Assembly (NCBI RefSeq): GCF_030408555.1 | Contig: NZ_CP047048.1 | Span: 1,674,001-1,738,000 of the forward strand | Length of the DNA stretch: 64,000 bases | Direction: 5' to 3' | Source of the DNA: Corynebacterium aurimucosum | GTDB taxonomy: Bacteria > Actinomycetota > Actinomycetes > Mycobacteriales > Mycobacteriaceae | Shown here: positions 41,892 to 51,468 of the stretch, in pieces | Layout: each line of letters opens with the position of its first letter | Position numbering within the stretch: the stretch's first letter is position 1 | Notes under the pieces: generated by a model | The model's database searches: none | What the model saw: only the letters and a program-made list of their open reading frames with translations | What the model was told of the DNA's origin: nothing | Program-made: the position numbers and the translations under genes

Positions 41892-43394
41892 TTACTTGGT
41901 GTCCAGCTGCAGAGTCTTCTGCGTGTACTCCCACATCTCGTTGTAGAGCTTCTTGTCCTTGGACAGCTTAGTTCCGTAGGAAGGAATCATCTCCTGGATC
42001 TTGTCGCCCCACTGAATCATGTTCTCACCGAAGCAGCGCTCCAGTAGCTCAATCATGACGGCTGGGGTGATGGAAGCACCCGGGGAAGCGCCAAGCAGAC
42101 CAGCGATGCTGCCTTCTGGGTTGTTGATGAGGGTGGTGCCGAACTCCAAGGAGCCGAACTGCGGTGCACCCGCTGGCTTAATCACCTGGACACGCTGGCC
42201 GGCGATAACAGTCTCCCAATCAGCCGGGTCAGCGCTCGGGACGTATTCCTTCAGGGTTTCAACGCGCTTATCGAAGTCCTTGAGAACCTCAGTGACCAGG
42301 TACTTGGTCAGACCAAACTCCTGTGCTGCCACGCCCAGGTAAGAGGTGATGTTGTCCGGACGGATGGACTTGAACAGGTCCAGGTAGGAGCCCTTCTTCA
42401 GGAACTTCGGGGACCAGCCGCCGTAGGGACCAAACAGCAGGCCTTCTTCACCGTCGATGACACGGGTGTCCAGGTGCGGCACGGACATCGGCGGAGCGCC
42501 CACAGCAGCCTTGCCATAAACCTTTGCGTGGTGCTGCTTGACCAGCTCCGGGTTCTTGGAGCGCAGCCACAGGCCCGAAACCGGGAAACCGGCGAAACCA
42601 GAAACCTCACGGACACCAGCCTTGCGCAACAGGTCGAGTGCGTAACCGCCGGCACCAACGAAAACAAACTTGGCGTGGACAGCCTGGTAGTCACCGGTGT
42701 GGAGGTTCTTTGCCACCACGCGCCACTTGGAACCTTCACGCTTGATATCAACGACCTCGTGGCCATAACGGATCTCGGTGCCGGCAGCCTTAGCCGCAGT
42801 GAAGAACTGCTTAGCCAGGGCGCCAAAGTTGACGTCGGTGCCCGCATCGGTCCACGAGATGGCAACCTTCTGGGAGTTGAAGTCACGGCCCTGGGACATC
42901 AGGGGCAGCTTCTCCTGGAAGGTGGCGTCATCGTCGCTGAACTGCATGTTCGGGAACATGTGGTTATCCTTCAGCGCGTCGAAGCGGCGCTTCAGGTAAT
43001 CCACCTGGATGGAGCCCTGTGCAAAGGACACATGCGGAACCGGGTTGATGAAGGCCTTCGGGTCCGTCAGGATGCCGTTGTTGAGCTGGTGGGACCAGAA
43101 CTGGCGAGAAACCTGGAACTTCTCATTGATATTCATAGCCTTGGAAACATCAATGCGGCCGTTCTTTTCTGGGGTGTAGTTCAGCTCGCACAGCGCGGAG
43201 TGGCCGGTACCGGCATTGTTCCACGGGGAAGAGGACTCAAGCGCAGGGCCGTCCAAACGCTCGAAGACCATCTGCGTCCAGCTGGGCTCGAGCTCACGCA
43301 GCATGGCGCCGAGGGTGGCGCTCATAATACCTGCACCAATGAGTGCGACCTCAACCTCGTCTACTACTTGTGCTGTCTTCTTATCGGAGGACAC
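41892..43394 (-). CDS. mqo: Malate:quinone oxidoreductase
   Basis: Membrane-associated FAD enzyme that oxidises malate and passes electrons to menaquinone. It is the main malate-oxidising TCA enzyme in corynebacteria. The 500-residue protein has an N-terminal FAD motif (ALIGAGIMSATLGAML), and the family segments NAGTGHSALCELNYTP and GASPGASI. It starts with GTG. An AAAGAGG lies about 14 nt upstream. The usual length and intact motifs argue for a working enzyme. Confidence 0.95.
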   Translation of the reverse strand: MSSDKKTAQVVDEVEVALIGAGIMSATLGAMLRELEPSWTQMVFERLDGPALESSSPWNNAGTGHSALCELNYTPEKNGRIDVSKAMNINEKFQVSRQFWSHQLNNGILTDPKAFINPVPHVSFAQGSIQVDYLKRRFDALKDNHMFPNMQFSDDDATFQEKLPLMSQGRDFNSQKVAISWTDAGTDVNFGALAKQFFTAAKAAGTEIRYGHEVVDIKREGSKWRVVAKNLHTGDYQAVHAKFVFVGAGGYALDLLRKAGVREVSGFAGFPVSGLWLRSKNPELVKQHHAKVYGKAAVGAPPMSVPHLDTRVIDGEEGLLFGPYGGWSPKFLKKGSYLDLFKSIRPDNITSYLGVAAQEFGLTKYLVTEVLKDFDKRVETLKEYVPSADPADWETVIAGQRVQVIKPAGAPQFGSLEFGTTLINNPEGSIAGLLGASPGASITPAVMIELLERCFGENMIQWGDKIQEMIPSYGTKLSKDKKLYNEMWEYTQKTLQLDTK

Positions 43395-43695
43395 TGTACT
43401 TATTACCTCTTTGAGTCGATGTATTCGTTGTGGTCAAGTGCCCTGCGCATGTGGGTACACAGGGCGCGGTGAGAAAGCGCTCGACGATGCTAGGAAGCAA
43501 ACCGGCATACAGACCTCCCCTACGAGAGGTCCGTCAAGCATTAATTCCACTTTACGCCCCTAAATGAGAAATAGGCATTCCTGGGAAAATAAATGCCCGA
43601 ATATGAAACCACTACCCCTTTTGTGGTGCAGGACAACTGTGGCTAGCGCTCCGCCCCGACGGACGCACCTGGCTGTACGGCCTATCATGAGCTCC
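43395..43695. other. Intergenic region between mqo and the hydrolase gene
   Basis: This divergent region should hold the mqo promoter. A small inverted repeat GACCTC/GAGGTC (43512-43531) and an AT-rich stretch (43541-43600) are seen. TATCAT (43683-43688) is the likely -10 of the hydrolase gene. A reading frame from 43564 joins the hydrolase ORF, but its sequence is unlike coding DNA of the family. Confidence 0.5.
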
Positions 43696-44697
43696 ATGAC
43701 ATATGACGAACTCGAATGGTCAACAGATCTCCTCGGGCCCGATTTCCAAGCCGCCACCCTTGAACTCGGCGCCGACCCTGATGGCGAGGGCGATGTGTGC
43801 GCGACGCTCGTGCGCTACTGTCCCGACACGGATGCCCACGATGACCGCCCCGCCTTGGTGTGGGTCCATGGCATGACGGATTACTTCTTCCACGATCACG
43901 TAGCGCGCTATTTCTATGAGCTCGGCTATGCCTTTTATGCTCTCGACTTGCGCAAGTGCGGGCGCTCCCGGAGGGACGGCCAAACCTGGCATTACATCAG
44001 CGATATGAAGTATTACGACACCGACCTCAACGCGGCTCTCGACGCCCTCCCCAACCAGCGTGTCGTCATCATGGGCCACTCCACCGCCGGCACCATCATC
44101 GCACTCTGGCTTGATCGCCTTCGCCGCCAGGACCGCGAACACTTCACCCGCATCTCCGGTGTCGTCTTCAACAGCCCCTGGTTGGCCATGATGGGAACGG
44201 CGGATAAGACTTATGAGGTGCTCAAGCACGTCATCTATGCCGGCGCTGCCATCGCCCCAAAATTCCCGATTCCCGGAGGCGATCTCACTGCCTACGGGGA
44301 ATCTATCCATGCCGAGGAGCAGGGCGACTGGGATTTCGACCGTCGCCTCAAGCCACTGGGCGGGCACCCGAAATACCTGGGCTGGGTAGCAGCGGTCTTC
44401 CATGGCTTCGACGCGATCCATTCCGGCCGCATCAACATGGGACTCCCGCTGCTGACCATGACTTCAGGACGCTCCGAACTCAATCAGCCTTATAGCGAAT
44501 CCTCTAACACCGCCGATGTTGTTGTGGACGTACGCCAGAGCCAGCGATGGGCCAAGGAGCTCAGCGCCCGTTACACGCTCCACGTTGTAAATAATGGGCG
44601 CCACGATCTCTTTCTTTCCCGCCCCGAGCCGCTGCAGGAAGCATTCTCCACCGCCGCGGAATGGTTGCGCGCCGTGGCCCCTCTTGAGACGGATTAG
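43696..44697 (+). CDS. Alpha/beta hydrolase (serine aminopeptidase S33 / lysophospholipase-like)
   Basis: 333-residue hydrolase. The fold marks are WVHGMTDYF (oxyanion region), the nucleophile elbow MGHSTAG (Gly-His-Ser) and a late NGRHDLF that supplies the His. It resembles monoacylglycerol lipase/lysophospholipase members of Hydrolase_4. No signal peptide is seen, so it is probably cytosolic. TATCAT (43683-43688) ends 7 nt before the ATG at 43696; an ATG at 43687 is less likely. mtr follows after 65 bp. Confidence 0.83.
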   Translation: MTYDELEWSTDLLGPDFQAATLELGADPDGEGDVCATLVRYCPDTDAHDDRPALVWVHGMTDYFFHDHVARYFYELGYAFYALDLRKCGRSRRDGQTWHYISDMKYYDTDLNAALDALPNQRVVIMGHSTAGTIIALWLDRLRRQDREHFTRISGVVFNSPWLAMMGTADKTYEVLKHVIYAGAAIAPKFPIPGGDLTAYGESIHAEEQGDWDFDRRLKPLGGHPKYLGWVAAVFHGFDAIHSGRINMGLPLLTMTSGRSELNQPYSESSNTADVVVDVRQSQRWAKELSARYTLHVVNNGRHDLFLSRPEPLQEAFSTAAEWLRAVAPLETD

Positions 44698-44762
44698 ACT
44701 CGCCCACCTCGCGCTTTTCGGCCTGCACGGGTTGCGGCTAGGCAGCCTCTAGAATGGTCGGC

Positions 44763-46139
44763 ATGACTTCCGCACAGCACTTTGACCTCGTCATCATCGG
44801 CACTGGGTCGGGAAATTCAATCCCCTCCCCTGAGTTCGACGATAAATCCATCGCCATCATCGAAAAGGGAACCTTCGGCGGAACCTGTCTCAACGTGGGC
44901 TGCATCCCAACGAAGATGTACGTCTACGCTGCCGACGTGGCACTCGCCGCGCGCGAGGCAACCCGTCTTGGGCTCAGCGCCCACGTGGATGCTGTGGATT
45001 GGGACGGCATTGTCGAGCGCGTATTCCACAACCGCATCGATCAGATCGCCCGCGGCGGCGAAGAGTACCGCCGTGGCGAGGAAACGCCGAATATTACAGT
45101 CTTTGATCAACATGCTCGGTTCATCGGACCGAAAACCCTGCAAGCGGGCGATGACATCATCACCGGTGACAATATTGTTATTGCTACCGGCTCACGCCCT
45201 GTACTGCCCGAACCCTATGCCAGCTCTTCCGTGCCGGTCCACACCAACGAGGACATCATGCGGCTTGAGAAGCAGCCGCGTAGCCTCATCGTGGTCGGTG
45301 GCGGCTACATCGCCATGGAATTTGCCCACGTCTTCGACGGCCTGGGGACGGAAGTGACCGTGGTCAACCGCTCGGAGAAGTTCCTCCGGTTCCTTGACGA
45401 AGACTTAAGCTCCCGGTTCAACGACATCGCACGCGAGCGTTTCGACGTCCGCATTGGCACCGCCACAGCACTAGAGGAAACCGCAGACGGTGTACGCCTA
45501 ACCTTGGATAGCGGTGATGTCGTGGAGGCGGAAGCCATCCTCGTGGCCACCGGCCGCCAGCCCAACGGCGATCAGATGGATCTTTCTACCAGCGGTATTG
45601 AAATGCACGAGGACGGGCGCATCAAGGTCGACGAGTTTGGTCGCACGACCTGCGAGGGCGTGTGGGCGCTCGGCGATGTCTCCTCTCCTTACATGCTCAA
45701 GCACGTAGCCAATGCGGAGCAACGAGCGGTACAGCACAATCTGTTGCATCCTGAAGACCTCCGTCCCATGCCGCACGAGCACATCCCCGCTGCCATTTTC
45801 ACCCACCCGCAAATTGCGACGGTGGGACTTACTGAGGCACAAGCCCGCGAAGAGGGCTATGACGTCACGGTGAAGGTGCAGAACTTTGGCGACGTTGCCT
45901 ATGGATGGGCTATGGAAGACTCAACAGGCATCTGCAAGCTCGTGGCCGATCGTGCCACCGGCAAGCTCCTCGGCGCCCACATCATGGGCCCACAAGCGTC
46001 CACTCTTATACAGCAGTTGATCACTGCCATGGTCTACGACCTTGATATACGCGAGTTCGCTCGCTCGCAATACTGGATCCACCCGGCACTGCCAGAAGTA
46101 GTGGAAAACGCAGTTTTGGGACTAGAGTGGCAGGAGTGA
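44763..46139 (+). CDS. mtr: Mycothione reductase
   Basis: NADPH-flavin disulfide reductase that regenerates mycothiol from its disulfide. The 458-residue protein has an FAD motif IIGTGSGN, the redox-active pair in TCLNVGCIP (Cys42 and Cys47), an NAD(P) motif VVGGGYIAMEF and the C-terminal interface HPALPE with the catalytic His. TAGAAT (44750-44755) ends exactly 7 nt before the ATG at 44763, so this start is preferred over 44754. Mycothiol is specific to actinobacteria. Confidence 0.92.
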   Translation: MTSAQHFDLVIIGTGSGNSIPSPEFDDKSIAIIEKGTFGGTCLNVGCIPTKMYVYAADVALAAREATRLGLSAHVDAVDWDGIVERVFHNRIDQIARGGEEYRRGEETPNITVFDQHARFIGPKTLQAGDDIITGDNIVIATGSRPVLPEPYASSSVPVHTNEDIMRLEKQPRSLIVVGGGYIAMEFAHVFDGLGTEVTVVNRSEKFLRFLDEDLSSRFNDIARERFDVRIGTATALEETADGVRLTLDSGDVVEAEAILVATGRQPNGDQMDLSTSGIEMHEDGRIKVDEFGRTTCEGVWALGDVSSPYMLKHVANAEQRAVQHNLLHPEDLRPMPHEHIPAAIFTHPQIATVGLTEAQAREEGYDVTVKVQNFGDVAYGWAMEDSTGICKLVADRATGKLLGAHIMGPQASTLIQQLITAMVYDLDIREFARSQYWIHPALPEVVENAVLGLEWQE

Positions 46140-46428: not shown

Positions 46429-46454
46429 CAAAGCCTCCTAATCTGGAGGCTTTG
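46429..46454 (+). promoter_or_regulatory. Strong hairpin in the leader of the first small gene
   Basis: CAAAGCCTCC (46429-46438) and GGAGGCTTTG (46445-46454) form a perfect 10-bp stem with a 6-nt loop, 26 bp before the ATG. Only three T residues sit in the stem end and no T-run follows. It may be a terminator for mtr or a 5' stem stabilising a heavily used mRNA. Confidence 0.6.
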
Positions 46455-46480: not shown

Positions 46481-46918
46481 ATGCGTATCCGCAATGCAGC
46501 CATCGCCGGCGCTACTGCTCTCGCTGTTGCTTTCGGCGGCTCCACCGTCGCTTTCGCTGAGGACGCCAACGGCTCCGCTCAGGAGAACACCAACTCTTCC
46601 GCTTCCACCGACAACGGCTCCTCCTCCGCTGAGGACAACACCAACTCCGAGGCTTCCCTGTCCTCCAAGATTGGTGACTGGTTCTACGTTAATGAGAACG
46701 ACAACAAGGGCACTGCGGCTGACGGCCGCGCCATCTTCGGCTCCTCCAAGCACGAGAACTGCGATGCTGACGAGACCGAGGAAGAGTGCACCACTCTCGG
46801 CGACCAGCCGGCTTGGGCCAAGGCTTTCTACGGCCTGGGCATCGCTAGCGCCATCGCTTCCGTAGCTGGCTTCATCGGCGTTGTGTACAACTTCTTCGTC
46901 CACGGCCCGTCCTTCTAA
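46481..46918 (+). CDS. Small secreted protein, type A copy 1
   Basis: 145-residue protein of no characterised family that I recognise. A Sec signal peptide ends at about residue 26 (TVAFA-ED). An acidic, Ser/Asn-rich segment follows, then LSSK near residue 61, an IFG motif, a Cys pair (Cys94 and Cys102) that could be a disulfide, PAWAKA, and a C-terminal hydrophobic helix. It could be anchored in the membrane or mycomembrane by this helix. Codons are strongly biased to TCC, AAC, GAG and AAG, which suggests high expression. AAGGA lies 8-10 nt upstream. Confidence 0.82.
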   Translation: MRIRNAAIAGATALAVAFGGSTVAFAEDANGSAQENTNSSASTDNGSSSAEDNTNSEASLSSKIGDWFYVNENDNKGTAADGRAIFGSSKHENCDADETEEECTTLGDQPAWAKAFYGLGIASAIASVAGFIGVVYNFFVHGPSF

Positions 46919-46959
46919 GACGTCTCCCTTACACACTTTTTCCGAAAGGTTTAAATTTC

Positions 46960-47358
46960 ATGCGTAACTTCCGCACCGCTGCCGTTGCCGCTGCAACCGC
47001 CGCTTCCGTTGCTTTCGCCGGCACCTCCGTTGCCTTCGCTGCAGAGGACAACGAGACCGAGAACACCTCCTCTTCCAACCTGTCCTCCGCATACGACAAG
47101 GTCAAGGAAGACGACTCCGACGAGACCCTGTCCTCCAAGTGGGGCACCGCTACCGAGAAGGACAGGAAGGTCACCGGCGAGGACCTCTTCGGCAAGAAGC
47201 GCGCCGAGGATAACCCGCAGTGGGCTGAGATCTGGCGTGGCGGCACCTACGCTGCCCTCGGCACCGCAATTGCAGGCGCCCTGTTCGCTGCCTACAACTT
47301 CGCTGTGTACAACAACATCGTTCCGGCACACGTGCTGGACCCGATTTTCCGCCGCTAA
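46960..47358 (+). CDS. Small secreted protein, type B copy 1
   Basis: 132-residue protein, 41 bp after the type A gene. A signal peptide (MRNFRTAAVAAATAASVAFAG start) ends near residue 27. An acidic Ser/Thr/Glu segment follows, then LSSKWG, DLFG, PQWAEIWRGG and a hydrophobic Ala-rich helix with a short polar end. The plan matches the type A proteins, so the two are probably distant paralogues that may act as partners. The leader ACTTTTT...GAAAGG is nearly the same as that of type B copy 2. No known domain is recognised. Confidence 0.82.
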   Translation: MRNFRTAAVAAATAASVAFAGTSVAFAAEDNETENTSSSNLSSAYDKVKEDDSDETLSSKWGTATEKDRKVTGEDLFGKKRAEDNPQWAEIWRGGTYAALGTAIAGALFAAYNFAVYNNIVPAHVLDPIFRR

Positions 47359-47398
47359 TTAAGTTGCGGGTACGCTGACTGACTCAGCGCACTTCATT

Positions 47399-47434
47399 AG
47401 CGCCCATCCTCGCATCGTGGGGGTGGGCGCTTTT
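47399..47434 (+). terminator. Terminator of the first A-B pair
   Basis: AGCGCCCA (47399-47406) and TGGGCGCT (47424-47431) form an 8-bp stem, followed by TTTT. It lies 40 bp after the first type B gene and ends the first transcription unit. Confidence 0.82.
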
Positions 47435-47662
47435 GCATGCCTAGGCACCGATGAACTGTGGAGATACTCTAACTCTCTTAATAATTGCTGAGTGAATTGC
47501 TACAGTGGTGTGCCCGACAGGGGGATTTGGCGGCCTCAAGTAAACATCTAAGAGTGGTGCCGTTCCAGTGAATCCTGTCAATGTTTACGCTAGAATCGCT
47601 CAAGTGACTTGGGGCACCCTATAGTTACTCCAGTTCCTACGAGGTTTAAAAGGATTCACACT
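47435..47662. other. Promoter region of the second A-B pair
   Basis: About 230 bp without a credible gene. TAGAAT (47591-47596) is the best -10 candidate, with a weak -35, and would give a leader of roughly 60 nt. AAAAGGA lies before the ATG at 47663. The frame open from 47609 is leader, not protein, because the signal peptide starts at 47663. Confidence 0.55.
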
Positions 47663-48016
47663 ATGCGCATTCGCAAGGCCACCATTGCCGGTGTTACCGC
47701 TCTCGCTGTTGCATTCGGCGGCACCACCGTTGCTGCCGCTGCAGAGGGCAGCAGCAACGATTCCACTTCCAACTCTTCCGCATCCGCTGGTGAGCAGCAG
47801 GGCACCCAGAAGGCAGGCGGCTCCTCCGCACTGGGCAAGGCGCTCGAGGCTGAGAAGGAAGCCAACGGTCAGAACATCTTCGGCCAGAACTCTTCTATCT
47901 CCACCGAGCCGAAGTGGGCACAGGCCTTGGCTGGCATCGGCATCGTCGCCACCATCATCACCATCGCCGGTGGTCTGGTTGGCCCGGCACTGAACTACCT
48001 CAAGTTCGGCATGTAG
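47663..48016 (+). CDS. Small secreted protein, type A copy 2
   Basis: 117-residue paralogue of the type A gene at 46481. The signal peptide agrees at 21 of 26 positions (MRIRKATIAGVTALAVAFGG start). Then come a short Ser/Asn-rich stretch, the NIFG motif, EPKWAQAL and a hydrophobic C-terminal helix. The Cys pair and the LSSK motif of copy 1 are missing. AAAAGGA precedes the ATG. It has its own promoter region, and the type B copy 2 gene follows after 48 bp. Confidence 0.82.
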   Translation: MRIRKATIAGVTALAVAFGGTTVAAAAEGSSNDSTSNSSASAGEQQGTQKAGGSSALGKALEAEKEANGQNIFGQNSSISTEPKWAQALAGIGIVATIITIAGGLVGPALNYLKFGM

Positions 48017-48064
48017 TTCTCCCCTTCCCCCTTCTAACCCACTTTTTGAAAGGCTTTTCTCAAG

Positions 48065-48499
48065 ATGCGTAAATTCCGCACCGCCGCCGTTGCTGCTGCA
48101 ACCGCCGTCACCGTCGCCTTCGCTGGCACCACTGTTGCTTCCGCCGCTGAGGCCGTTGAGGGCTCCGGCCTGACCGACGCGCAGGTTCAGGAGGAGCTCA
48201 AGAAGGATGCTACTTCCTCCGAGATGTCTTCCGCACTCTCTTCTGAGGGCGAGGGCTCCCTTTCCTCCAAGCTGGGCGGCGTGACCGACGGCAACATCAC
48301 CGGTAATGGTGCTGACGCCTTCGGCTCCACCAAGAACCCGTCCCAGGTTCCGCAGTGGCTGGACCTCTGGCGTGGTGGCACCATCGCTATGGTTGCCGCT
48401 GCTGCTGTTTCCTCCGCTGTTGCTGCCTACAACTACGCTGTGTACTCCGGCAACATCCCGGACTACGTTGGCCAGGCCATCAAGAACGTCTCTTTCTAG
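48065..48499 (+). CDS. Small secreted protein, type B copy 2
   Basis: 144-residue paralogue of the gene at 46960. The signal peptide agrees at 22 of 27 positions. It keeps SLSSKLG, DAFG, VPQWLDLWRGG and the Ala/Val-rich helix with AAYNYAVY, close to AAYNFAVY in copy 1. The mature acidic segment is longer and different. GAAAGG precedes the ATG. This completes an A-B-A-B array, best explained by duplication of the whole pair. Confidence 0.82.
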   Translation: MRKFRTAAVAAATAVTVAFAGTTVASAAEAVEGSGLTDAQVQEELKKDATSSEMSSALSSEGEGSLSSKLGGVTDGNITGNGADAFGSTKNPSQVPQWLDLWRGGTIAMVAAAAVSSAVAAYNYAVYSGNIPDYVGQAIKNVSF

Positions 48500-48520
48500 T
48501 TCACGCTTTTACTGGCAGTA

Positions 48521-48577
48521 CAAAGCCCTCCGCCCCACCGTGTACCGCACGGGAGGTGGAGGGCTTTGTTTCTTTTT
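48521..48577 (+). terminator. Strong terminator of the second A-B pair
   Basis: CAAAGCCCTCC (48521-48531) pairs perfectly with GGAGGGCTTTG (48558-48568), followed by TTTCTTTTT. It ends the second unit and faces the convergent map gene. Confidence 0.9.
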
Positions 48578-48621: not shown

Positions 48622-49491
48622 CTAGGCCTCATCCGGCAGGGTGAGGATCTCGTTGCCGTCATCGGTGATCACGATGGTGTGCTCGAACTGGGCGGTGAAC
48701 TTTCCATCCGTGTTCTGGACGGTCCAGCCGTTATCCCAAATCTCATAATCCAGCGAGCCCAGGTTAATCATCGGCTCGATGGTCAAGGTCATTCCGGGCT
48801 CGAGGATGTCTCGGTAGGTCATGGAATCGTAGTGCAGCACAACCAACCCGTTGTGGAAAGTAGGGCCTACGCCGTGCCCGGTAAAGTCAGTGACCACGTT
48901 GTAGCCGAAACGGTGAGCATAAGACTCGATGACGCGTCCGATGACGTTAATCTCACGGCCCGGCTTAGCGGCCTTAATGCCGCGCATCATCGCTTCCTTG
49001 GTGCGCTCTACCAGCAACTTGTGTTCCTCGGTGACGTTGCCGGCAAGGAAAGTAGCGTTGGTATCGCCGTGGACACCATTCTTGAACGCAGTGACATCGA
49101 TATTGACAATGTCACCGTCCTCAATCACCGTGGTATCCGGGATGCCGTGGCAGACAATCTCATTGAGGGAAACACAGCAGGATTTCGGGAAACCCAGGTA
49201 TCCCAGCGTCGACGGGTATGCGCCGTGGTCACACATGTACTCGTGCGCAACGCGGTCAATCTCATCCGTGGTCACACCGGGAGCCACAGCCTTTCCCGCC
49301 TCCTGAAGGGCGTTGGCGGCAATCCGGGAGGCCTCACGCATGACCTCAATAACCTCCGGGGTCTGCACGAATGGCTCGCCCTGAGCTTCCTGAACCGTGT
49401 CCTTCCACACGTACTCGGGGCGCTCAATATCCTTCGGTACCTTGCGGATTGGGGTATCTTTTTCTTGTTTCAGCATCGCGCGCTTAGTCAT
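48622..49491 (-). CDS. map: Methionine aminopeptidase type I
   Basis: Removes N-terminal Met from new proteins. The 289-residue enzyme has an N-terminal extension as in actinobacterial MetAP1c-type proteins. The metal-binding residues lie in [34 protein letters not shown] and the last AQFEHT. TACCAT (49500-49505) is 8 nt before the ATG, so a leaderless mRNA is likely. Confidence 0.93.
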
Positions 49492-49560: not shown

Positions 49561-51411
49561 CTACTGCTCTCGTGCGGGAGCAACCTCGCCGTGGCCTTCC
49601 GCGCGGAGGGCGTCCAGACGCTGCAAGAAATTATCGGTGATGTTGACCGAAATCGTCGAGCCACCACCCAAAACGACGAGTGTTGCGAACGCAATGTCAT
49701 CATCCCGGAATCCGGTGAACCAGGCGTGCGAGCCGCCGTTGATTTCCGCCTCACCGGTCTTGCCGTAGACGGTCCCCTGGGCCTGCATTCCTGCGGCGGT
49801 ACCGCTCGCCACTACTTGGCGCATCATGTCACGCACGTGAGCCAGGGTTTCCTCGCTGGGCGCGGAGACCTCCTCGGAAACCTTGGTTTCGCGTGACTCG
49901 ATGAGCGTTGGCGTCGGGGTCTTGCCTGCCGCAACTGTCGAAGAGACAAGGGCCATGCCAAAGGGAGACACAAGGTCCAGGCCCTGACCATAGCCAGCTT
50001 CCGTGCGCTCCAGAGGAGTCTCGCCCTCGGGGACGGAGCCAGTGAGCGTCGAGAGCCCCGGCACCTCATAGTCGATGCCTAAGCCATATTGCTTGCCCAC
50101 ATCGCGCAGCTCTCCCTTCGGCAGGTCCGTCGAGATCTGCGCGAAGGTGGTGTTACAAGATTGCGCGAAAGCTTGGCGCAGCGGCACAGAGCCGAGTGAG
50201 AAGCCATTGTAGTTGGTCACGGTGCGCCCATACAGGTCCATGGTTCCGGGGCACGGCACGATGGAGTCTGGGGACAGGCCTTGCTTGTCGACGCCCGCCG
50301 AAGCCGTAATGATCTTAAACACCGATCCGGGAGGGAACTGTCCTTGGAGGGCAATATCGCCCTTCTTATCCGCTTCTGGAGTTTGGGCCACAGCAAGTAT
50401 CTCGCCCGTCGAGGGGCGCATGGCCACGATCATGGCCTCGTACTCGGGGCGCAGATTGACCGCTTCCTGAGCGGCACGCTGGACGTCATAGTCCAGCGAA
50501 ACTTTGACGGAAGGGGCTGCCTCGGGTTCGTGATACTCGACGTCGGAAAGCGCGGCGCCGTGCTCGTTGACTACCGAGACGGACCAACCATTCTTGCCGT
50601 CTACGTCTTCGGAGACCAGGGAACGCACGCGGGCGAGGATATCCGGGGCCAAACCAGTATCGCGCGTAATGAGCGCCGGTTCCTCGTTAAAGCGAATCCC
50701 CTTCTGGTTCTCCAGGACTGGGCGCAGCCGCGCTGCCTGAGCCTCATTGAGCATGGTGACCGAATAAGCGCCATCGACTTCTTCGAGATTCTTGGCGAGC
50801 TCTCCGGAATCAATGTCGGGGAAGGAATCATCCTCCCGGTACGCCTGGCTCAGCGCGCCGGATACTTTCGCGGCGACGGGGCGGGGATCGTCGACGGCGT
50901 CGGTGTCGACGACGAGCCGGTATTGCAAGCCCGGAGACATGAGTTCCACCCCATCGGAGGAGACCACACCAGCGCGTTTAGGCGCTATCGATCGCAGCTC
51001 AAGGTGCTGGTGCGCACCGAGGTCGGGGTGGATAATGCTGGGCTGCCAGCGCACGGTCCAGTCCTTATCCTTGCGCGTCAAGGCCATGGACGTGTCATAG
51101 CGCAAGGAACGATTGCGCGGCAGGGCCCACGTCACTGAATAGTGCGCAGTCGCCTTGGCTTCCTCCTGTTCAACGTCGGTCAATTCAACGTCGAGCCCCT
51201 CTGCTTGCAGGCCCGCGAAGGTTGCGTCAAGAGTGTTCGTGGCGGTCGTGCCATCATCGACAAGCTGCGCCAAGTCCTTGTTATTGCGGGTTTCCATGTC
51301 TTCCAGGAATTGCTCAGCAACTGGGCGCGCGGACACCGGCTTGGGGGTACATCCCGCCAATGACGACGCCGCGATGCTTGCCGCACCGAGCAGCGCCACG
51401 AACTTCTTCAT
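49561..51411 (-). CDS. Penicillin-binding protein (class B transpeptidase) with lipoprotein-like N-terminus
   Basis: Peptidoglycan transpeptidase of 616 residues. The N-terminus looks like a lipoprotein signal with lipobox LAGC (Cys near residue 21). An NTF2-like MecA_N domain, a PBP dimerisation domain and a transpeptidase domain follow, with SVFK (Ser363), SCN (about 418) and KTG (about 551). In this genus the homologue next to ispG is PBP2b-like. TACGCT (51420-51425) is 8 nt before the ATG at 51411; the ORF extension upstream is not supported. Confidence 0.9.
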   Translation of the reverse strand: MKKFVALLGAASIAASSLAGCTPKPVSARPVAEQFLEDMETRNNKDLAQLVDDGTTATNTLDATFAGLQAEGLDVELTDVEQEEAKATAHYSVTWALPRNRSLRYDTSMALTRKDKDWTVRWQPSIIHPDLGAHQHLELRSIAPKRAGVVSSDGVELMSPGLQYRLVVDTDAVDDPRPVAAKVSGALSQAYREDDSFPDIDSGELAKNLEEVDGAYSVTMLNEAQAARLRPVLENQKGIRFNEEPALITRDTGLAPDILARVRSLVSEDVDGKNGWSVSVVNEHGAALSDVEYHEPEAAPSVKVSLDYDVQRAAQEAVNLRPEYEAMIVAMRPSTGEILAVAQTPEADKKGDIALQGQFPPGSVFKIITASAGVDKQGLSPDSIVPCPGTMDLYGRTVTNYNGFSLGSVPLRQAFAQSCNTTFAQISTDLPKGELRDVGKQYGLGIDYEVPGLSTLTGSVPEGETPLERTEAGYGQGLDLVSPFGMALVSSTVAAGKTPTPTLIESRETKVSEEVSAPSEETLAHVRDMMRQVVASGTAAGMQAQGTVYGKTGEAEINGGSHAWFTGFRDDDIAFATLVVLGGGSTISVNITDNFLQRLDALRAEGHGEVAPAREQ

Positions 51412-51433
51412 GATTGGGCAGCGTAGCAGCCAA

Positions 51434-51453
51434 GGGCGGCCCGACGGCCGCCC
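51434..51453 (-). terminator. Hairpin between ispG and the penicillin-binding protein gene
   Basis: GGGCGGCC (51434-51441) and GGCCGCCC (51446-51453) form a perfect 8-bp stem with a 4-nt loop, 15 bp after the ispG stop. A T-run is lacking, and the next promoter's -10 lies close by. Confidence 0.5.
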
Positions 51454-51468
51454 CACACCGCAGGTGAA

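Follow-up and report, generated by a model that had tools for sequence, protein, structure and literature searches.

Several described systems of the corynebacterial envelope resemble the locus analysed here. PorB and PorC (cg1109/cg1108) form a co-transcribed pair of 126 and 123 amino acids, approximately 30% identical, with putative Sec signals, Ser-rich flexible ends and an envelope location (PMC5310785); for PorB, channel activity in lipid bilayers has been demonstrated. PorA and PorH are two small helical partners that are encoded in one operon and proposed to form a hetero-oligomeric pore; PorH requires PorA for its surface assembly, and PorH and ProtX are both reported to be linked to the wall (PMC12632848). 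The S-layer protein PS2 (CspB) combines a signal peptide with a C-terminal hydrophobic transmembrane helix that anchors it in the mycomembrane (PMC12337289). Cgl2215 is comparable by its description, being a small protein that acts on the envelope and has reported homologues in only a few Corynebacterium species (PMC10441969). The two types of protein that we describe, A and B, recall each of these systems in part.

The genes lie in a window of 64,000 nucleotides of Corynebacterium aurimucosum DNA, by which we mean the whole stretch that was analysed (Table 1). A sequence-only reading of this window had picked out four plus-strand reading frames of 145, 132, 117 and 144 codons located 3' of mtr in the order A-B-A-B, and had taken them to encode an abundant, secreted, two-part envelope system; the coordinates and lengths are confirmed.

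Table 1. Features of the A-B-A-B locus and its surroundings, and related copies and remnants at other loci (L numbers)
Feature	Position	Strand	Remarks
mqo-like gene	41892-43394	-	upstream of A1; name read from sequence
Hydrolase gene	43564-44697		upstream of A1; name read from sequence
mtr-like reductase gene (mtr)	44754-46139		precedes A-B-A-B; name read from sequence
Hairpin in A1 leader	46430..46453	+	9 bp stem, 27 nt upstream of A1 start
A1, A type, 145 aa	46481..46918	+	predicted Sec-exported small protein; most hydrophobic 19 residues 118-136; end ...NFFVHGPSF
B1, B type, 132 aa	46960..47358	+	predicted Sec-exported small protein; most hydrophobic 19 residues 98-116; end ...AYNFAVYNNIVPAHVLDPIFRR
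Terminator-like hairpin 3' of B1	47399..47431	+	15 bp stem, z -6.1, followed by a short T run only
A2, second A-type copy, 117 aa	47663..48016	+	listed open frame begins further upstream, at 47609
B2, second B-type copy, 144 aa	48065..48499	+	
Terminator-like hairpin 3' of B2	48520..48569	+	z -6.6, followed by a T-rich tract
Methionine aminopeptidase gene (map)	48622-49491		downstream, convergent; name read from sequence
Penicillin-binding protein gene (pbp)	49561-51456		downstream, convergent; name read from sequence
Unlinked third copy	L168:3456-3779	-	one of three read
Unlinked third copy	L169:2996-3340	-	one of three read
Unlinked third copy	L170:2710-3075	-	one of three read
Short B-like C-terminal piece	L123:2366-2572		alone, between mtr and map
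Short B-like C-terminal piece	L124:2341-2526		alone, between mtr and map

The shared features that had been listed for the four proteins held on recomputation. The signal peptides agree at exactly 21 of 26 residues between A1 and A2 and at 22 of 27 between B1 and B2, an xFG motif is found in all four (IFG, LFG, IFG and AFG in A1, B1, A2 and B2), as is PxW (PAW, PQW, PKW and PQW in the same order), and every protein has a C-terminal hydrophobic stretch. LSSK[IWL]G is present in A1, B1 and B2, three of the four, with GSSALG in its place in A2. PorA and PorH are shorter chains without signal peptides, and the earlier exclusion of that family agrees with the start of all four window proteins, which resembles a signal peptide and has an AxA-type site, as assigned by eye from the visible n/h/c pattern. 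The strong hairpins 3' of B1 and of B2 are consistent with the claim that each pair has its own terminator; a simple terminator scan of the window, which was stricter on the T tract and used an ungapped stem, returned none after either gene. Codon bias had been read as a sign of heavy expression, and the preferred-codon fractions of the four genes (0.895-0.929) are indeed the top values of the window, compared with a median of 0.634 over 58 window ORFs, a mechanical list in which an antisense ORF was chosen in the place of A1, so that A1 was scored separately.

The same architecture is seen in 74 A and B sequences, whose mature chains (cleavage placed by a simple AxA rule) are 83-163 residues long. 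The part that precedes the helix has medians of approximately 19% Ser+Thr and 18-20% Asp+Glu, and its median net charge is -7 in A and -9 in B. Ser-Ser doublets occur in 72 of the 74 linkers, compared with a mean of 45.7 and a maximum of 55 over 200 shuffles. O-mycoloylated mycomembrane proteins bear a Cmt1-dependent mycoloyl group on Ser or Thr. The known sites may lie preferentially in Ser-rich parts of the chain (PMC11066868), and we list the enrichment on the side of a mycomembrane location. After the most hydrophobic 19-residue window there remain 7-17 residues in A and 3-22 in B, and the Kyte-Doolittle maximum over such a window (median 2.04 in A and 1.85 in B) is moderate and undecisive as to a membrane. 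The single chains were modelled poorly by AF2 (pLDDT 60 and 50, A1 being the worse); at low confidence, each has a 31-residue C-terminal helix, spanning residues 87-117 of B1 and 111-141 of A1. PorB is different, with a compact four-helix domain and a disulfide, whereas A and B have one long helix in these weak models and Cys is absent from 69 of the 74 mature sequences. A1 itself has two Cys inside an acidic insert, CDADETEEEC, that few relatives share and that could possibly form a disulfide loop. PS2, at around 500 amino acids, has a helical core and arm, domains for which A and B are too short; their mature chains are mostly linker and one hydrophobic stretch, and we rejected membership of a PS2-like S-layer.

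No characterised family had been recognised in the sequence-only reading and none was found by searching. In Pfam and NCBIfam, none of the four proteins scored over a model cut-off; all matches in Pfam, NCBIfam and PHROGs were weak, below the cut-off wherever one was shown, and several of them fall on the signal peptide or the hydrophobic helix. We set aside both the strongest family match, DUF4148 (B2 residues 1-46, E 5e-4, 20.9 bits against a cut-off of 27), and the most frequent Pfam match, DUF5676 (a 2TM family of unknown function), which was obtained for 6 of 60 core sequences with a best E of 3e-4 in a scan where member cut-offs were not displayed. These core sequences derive from 70 A and B sequences, which yielded 68 core pieces (B of L091 and A of L103 gave none); 60 of the 68 were used for the core profile, A5, and the eight omitted were mostly near-copies. 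In their alignment a single column, N, is invariant and four more (G, P, W and G) are nearly so; the consensus is G-x-D-x-F-G ... P-x-W-A ... G ... N-F, with one hydrophobic helix between P-x-W-A and N. Searched against PDB sequences, the core profile gives no match at E<=1 and, with no porin model among the Pfam matches of the four proteins at E<=1, membership of the PorB/PorC family was also rejected. The sole PDB match of a full-length profile at E<=1 is PS2 (9hpn, E 0.1) and involves the signal-peptide part only; a match for A1 alone (E 0.64) was discarded, Foldseek with the B1 model found no fold match (best E 5.9), and one sub-threshold match in Rfam was judged to be chance. With phmmer at E<=1e-3, B1 had 295 relatives and A1 had 244. 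Among the best 120 of each, all the named relatives are from Corynebacterium and the annotations are hypothetical, membrane or uncharacterised protein; the nearest named relatives among the listed matches are from C. aurimucosum for A1 (79%) and C. minutissimum for B1 (81%).

Types A and B had been described as sharing one plan but differing in the signal peptide. The shared plan stands, yet the homology of the two extends along most of the chain and takes in the signal peptide (hhalign probability 99.7, 118 columns). We named the types by position in the locus, so their order alone tests nothing; unlike the order, separation on a tree does test the distinction, and there the A and B labels require 2 changes each, compared with approximately 26 after label shuffling. 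This separation, together with the homology, argues for two partners. Homology would also be expected if A and B were merely duplicates of one protein that form homo-oligomers and are held together by a shared promoter. The tree neither shows nor rejects an A clade (2 changes; 25 of 74 inner branches open; p 0.19 in an AU test of A as one clade), unlinked third copies occur (Table 1), and the ends of A and B are more alike in C. glutamicum-like genomes, which counts against our preferred reading as well. However, in relatives nearer to the window A and B differ in both their C-terminal ends and their signal peptides, and their pairing outlasts relocation; we regard simple duplication as improbable.

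The core profile is positive in 121 of 242 Corynebacterium genomes, with two matches in 99 of the 121, one in 5, three in 12 and four in 5 (the genome of the window, G011, G012, G124 and G169). The A-B-A-B array is thus real here but is not the general state: the basic unit is one A-B pair, and the doubled array is a local state for which the proposed duplication as a pair is supported. Ten of the genomes with three matches have a distant extra copy, and in the other two A matches in two pieces. An unlinked shorter relative, of 107-121 amino acids as listed, is seen in C. glutamicum-like genomes and has [IW][FW]GSSK and a hydrophobic stretch. Among 397 genomes sampled across the order there were 6 core matches, all in Corynebacterium (by genus, 1 of 85), and a search of plasmid records with B1 gave no match. 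A full-length profile labelled "A2", positive in 150 of the 242 genomes, was dropped in favour of the core profile since its count came partly from the shared signal peptide.

Pairing of A and B elsewhere, which a two-part system implies, was found in all 35 measured units, on one strand and with a gap of 28-68 nucleotides. The units come from 40 regions hand-picked, and so not at random, from the match lists: 34 have pairs, and the six outside the pair counts have a B remnant only (L123 and L124) or other small secreted proteins (L120, L121, L122 and L125). The count of 35 leaves out the second pair of L086, for which no acceptable start was found. L121, from a genome without the A/B core, encodes three small exported proteins on the same strand, all of which begin like a signal peptide. 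A match to mtr is within the fetched stretch at 26 of the 34 pair loci (19 of 20 plus 7 of 14), while at the remaining 8 the stretch contains no match to mtr, map, hydrolase or pbp and the pair is still intact. That linkage is kept after relocation argues for A-B as a two-part unit.

The pair can also be missing from its usual place. The B-like pieces of L123 and L124 are apparently what is left of a decayed pair. In 10 of 28 core-lacking genomes, mtr and map are convergent with their coding ends 3-163 bases apart; in the other 18 there is no map match within the stretch, and minus-strand spans were read by hand. The 28 include 8 of the FadD32-negative genomes discussed below, as well as G006 and G062, which have weak matches to the full-length profile. 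BLAST of A1, B1, A2 and B2 against the 28 stretches gave no match at E<=1e-6. A crude rule detected no exported frame between mtr and map at the 10 convergent sites, a weak test that lends no support to a substitute exported protein where A-B is missing. From the B remnants and the direct convergence of mtr and map, A and B appear to be gained and lost together.

In genome G117, which we take to be C. glutamicum ATCC 13032, the gene order is hydrolase, mtr, A (115 aa), B (119 aa), map and pbp, as in the window. Combined with the published numbers of the neighbours (mtr as NCgl1928, PMC4935862, and Cgl2003, PMC8637627; mqo as cg2192, PMC7775120; the penicillin-binding protein as Cgl2008, PMC11066868, Table 1), this order makes A very probably cg2195, that is NCgl1929 and about Cgl2004, and B very probably cg2196, about Cgl2005. 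NCgl1929 is reported as the highest transcript in the test group, one of two RNA-seq groups (TPM 27617; PMC7268698); for this probable homologue, the report fits the predicted heavy expression, and we count it in favour of an abundant protein. The 180 bp upstream of cg2195, described as a putative membrane protein, have been employed as a strong promoter; the same source mentions tuf as highest by RNA-seq, perhaps only among the promoters compared, which argues against the claim of a top transcript (PMC6303301). In the main texts of CC-licensed PMC papers, a search for cg2195, cg2196, NCgl1929, NCgl1930, Cgl2004 and Cgl2005 showed no paper on function among those listed, and the two papers found to mention cg2195 or NCgl1929 deal solely with its promoter or with how strongly it is transcribed. 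Of the Cgl20xx numbers, the O-mycoloylome paper has in its main text only the neighbouring Cgl2008; Cgl2004 and Cgl2005 are absent from it, which we count against the mycomembrane reading (PMC11066868). Where "Cgl2005" appears in PMC7775120, PMC5508688 and PMC10441969 it is a strain name and not the B gene, and we took its use beside cspB in PMC12337289 likewise. The small C. glutamicum protein Cgl2215 is a binding partner of MytA and stimulates it (PMC10441969), and A and B might comparably be accessory proteins that bind or tune a mycoloyltransferase or another envelope enzyme. The reported transcript level and the extreme codon bias, however, suggest a structural amount rather than that of a helper, and we consider such a role very improbable.

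The distribution of the core also bears on its location. FadD32 is a marker of mycolate synthesis. It was scored at E<=1e-100, as no match passes the curated cut-off of the family (0 of 242), C. glutamicum control included; at this level, 227 of the 242 Corynebacterium genomes have a strong FadD32-like match and 15 do not. The core is present in 120 of the 227 and absent from 107, and A-B is thus dispensable for a mycomembrane. It is found in 0 of the 13 FadD32-negative genomes that are at least 90% complete, a count that is uncorrected for descent and may represent few clades. The direction of this contrast fits a mycomembrane role and we count it as an argument for one, weakened by the possibly few clades, by the failure at the curated cut-off, by G166, one of the 13, which matches the full-length profile weakly (E 7.5e-4), and by G260, which is 77% complete and is the one of the 15 FadD32-negative genomes with the core.

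When a Sec substrate has a hydrophobic helix further along the chain, its default destination is the plasma membrane, and the helix of A and B could halt there, which argues against the mycomembrane. The signal peptide would then be cleaved, the C-terminal helix would stop with the N-terminus out, and the acidic Ser-rich segment would act as a spacer, tether or regulator in the inner wall zone. The hydrophobic stretches are compatible with one membrane helix, and the published description of cg2195 as a putative membrane protein agrees (PMC6303301). Against such a location, the lack of the core in every one of the 13 FadD32-negative genomes that are near-complete would be unexpected, unless they are few clades, and PS2 shows by analogy that a protein with such a helix at its C-terminus can be anchored in the mycomembrane (PMC12337289). 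We judge a plasma-membrane pair to be rather unlikely, yet a serious rival.

Starting from what is observed here (the order of the genes, the homology and pairing of A and B, their confinement to the genus among the genomes searched, the sequence architecture, the codon bias and the empty sites), we tentatively favour, at not quite an even chance, a Sec-exported A:B oligomer anchored in the envelope by single helices, with the mycomembrane likelier than the plasma membrane. The precedents of PS2, PorB/PorC, PorA/PorH and PorH/ProtX suggest such an oligomer; the poor AF2 single-chain models and the lack of a fold match for B1 speak against it. A two-gene operon, A then B and presumably co-transcribed, would yield two homologous and probably very abundant exported proteins, each mature chain running from a variable, acidic, Ser-rich flexible segment through the G-x-D-x-F-G ... 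P-x-W-A element to the helix and a short tail. The Gly/Ala-rich single membrane helices of A and B would most probably pack into a high-copy hetero-oligomer, in which the helix would be the mycomembrane anchor and the Ser-rich segment would point toward the cell wall or outside. The complex could be a structural element or a small-solute channel, pore and tether being indistinguishable with the present data. The most specific form of this proposal, genus-specific hetero-oligomeric single-helix mycomembrane complexes that act as a channel or an Lpp-like wall link, are encoded in C. glutamicum by the reportedly most transcribed gene and are gained or lost as one unit in the mtr-map interval, we consider unlikely. 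C. glutamicum is an industrial workhorse and a model of the mycolate envelope; should the pair prove to be a main constituent of the mycomembrane, studies of permeability, of attachment to the wall and of surface display would need to consider it, and the approximately equal division of the Corynebacterium genomes searched into those with and without the core offers a natural contrast to exploit.

The hairpin in the A1 leader has a z-score of -3.3 in a 46-nucleotide piece and -5.3 for the 80 nucleotides upstream of the start. A comparable leader z-score is absent in many lineages. In related genomes the hairpin recurs before A, with a conserved GTACGAC just 3' of it. Of the 6 consensus pairs in an alignment of 24 leaders, 3 are changed on both sides at least once, and in some cells the pairing is broken; the covariation signal is modest.
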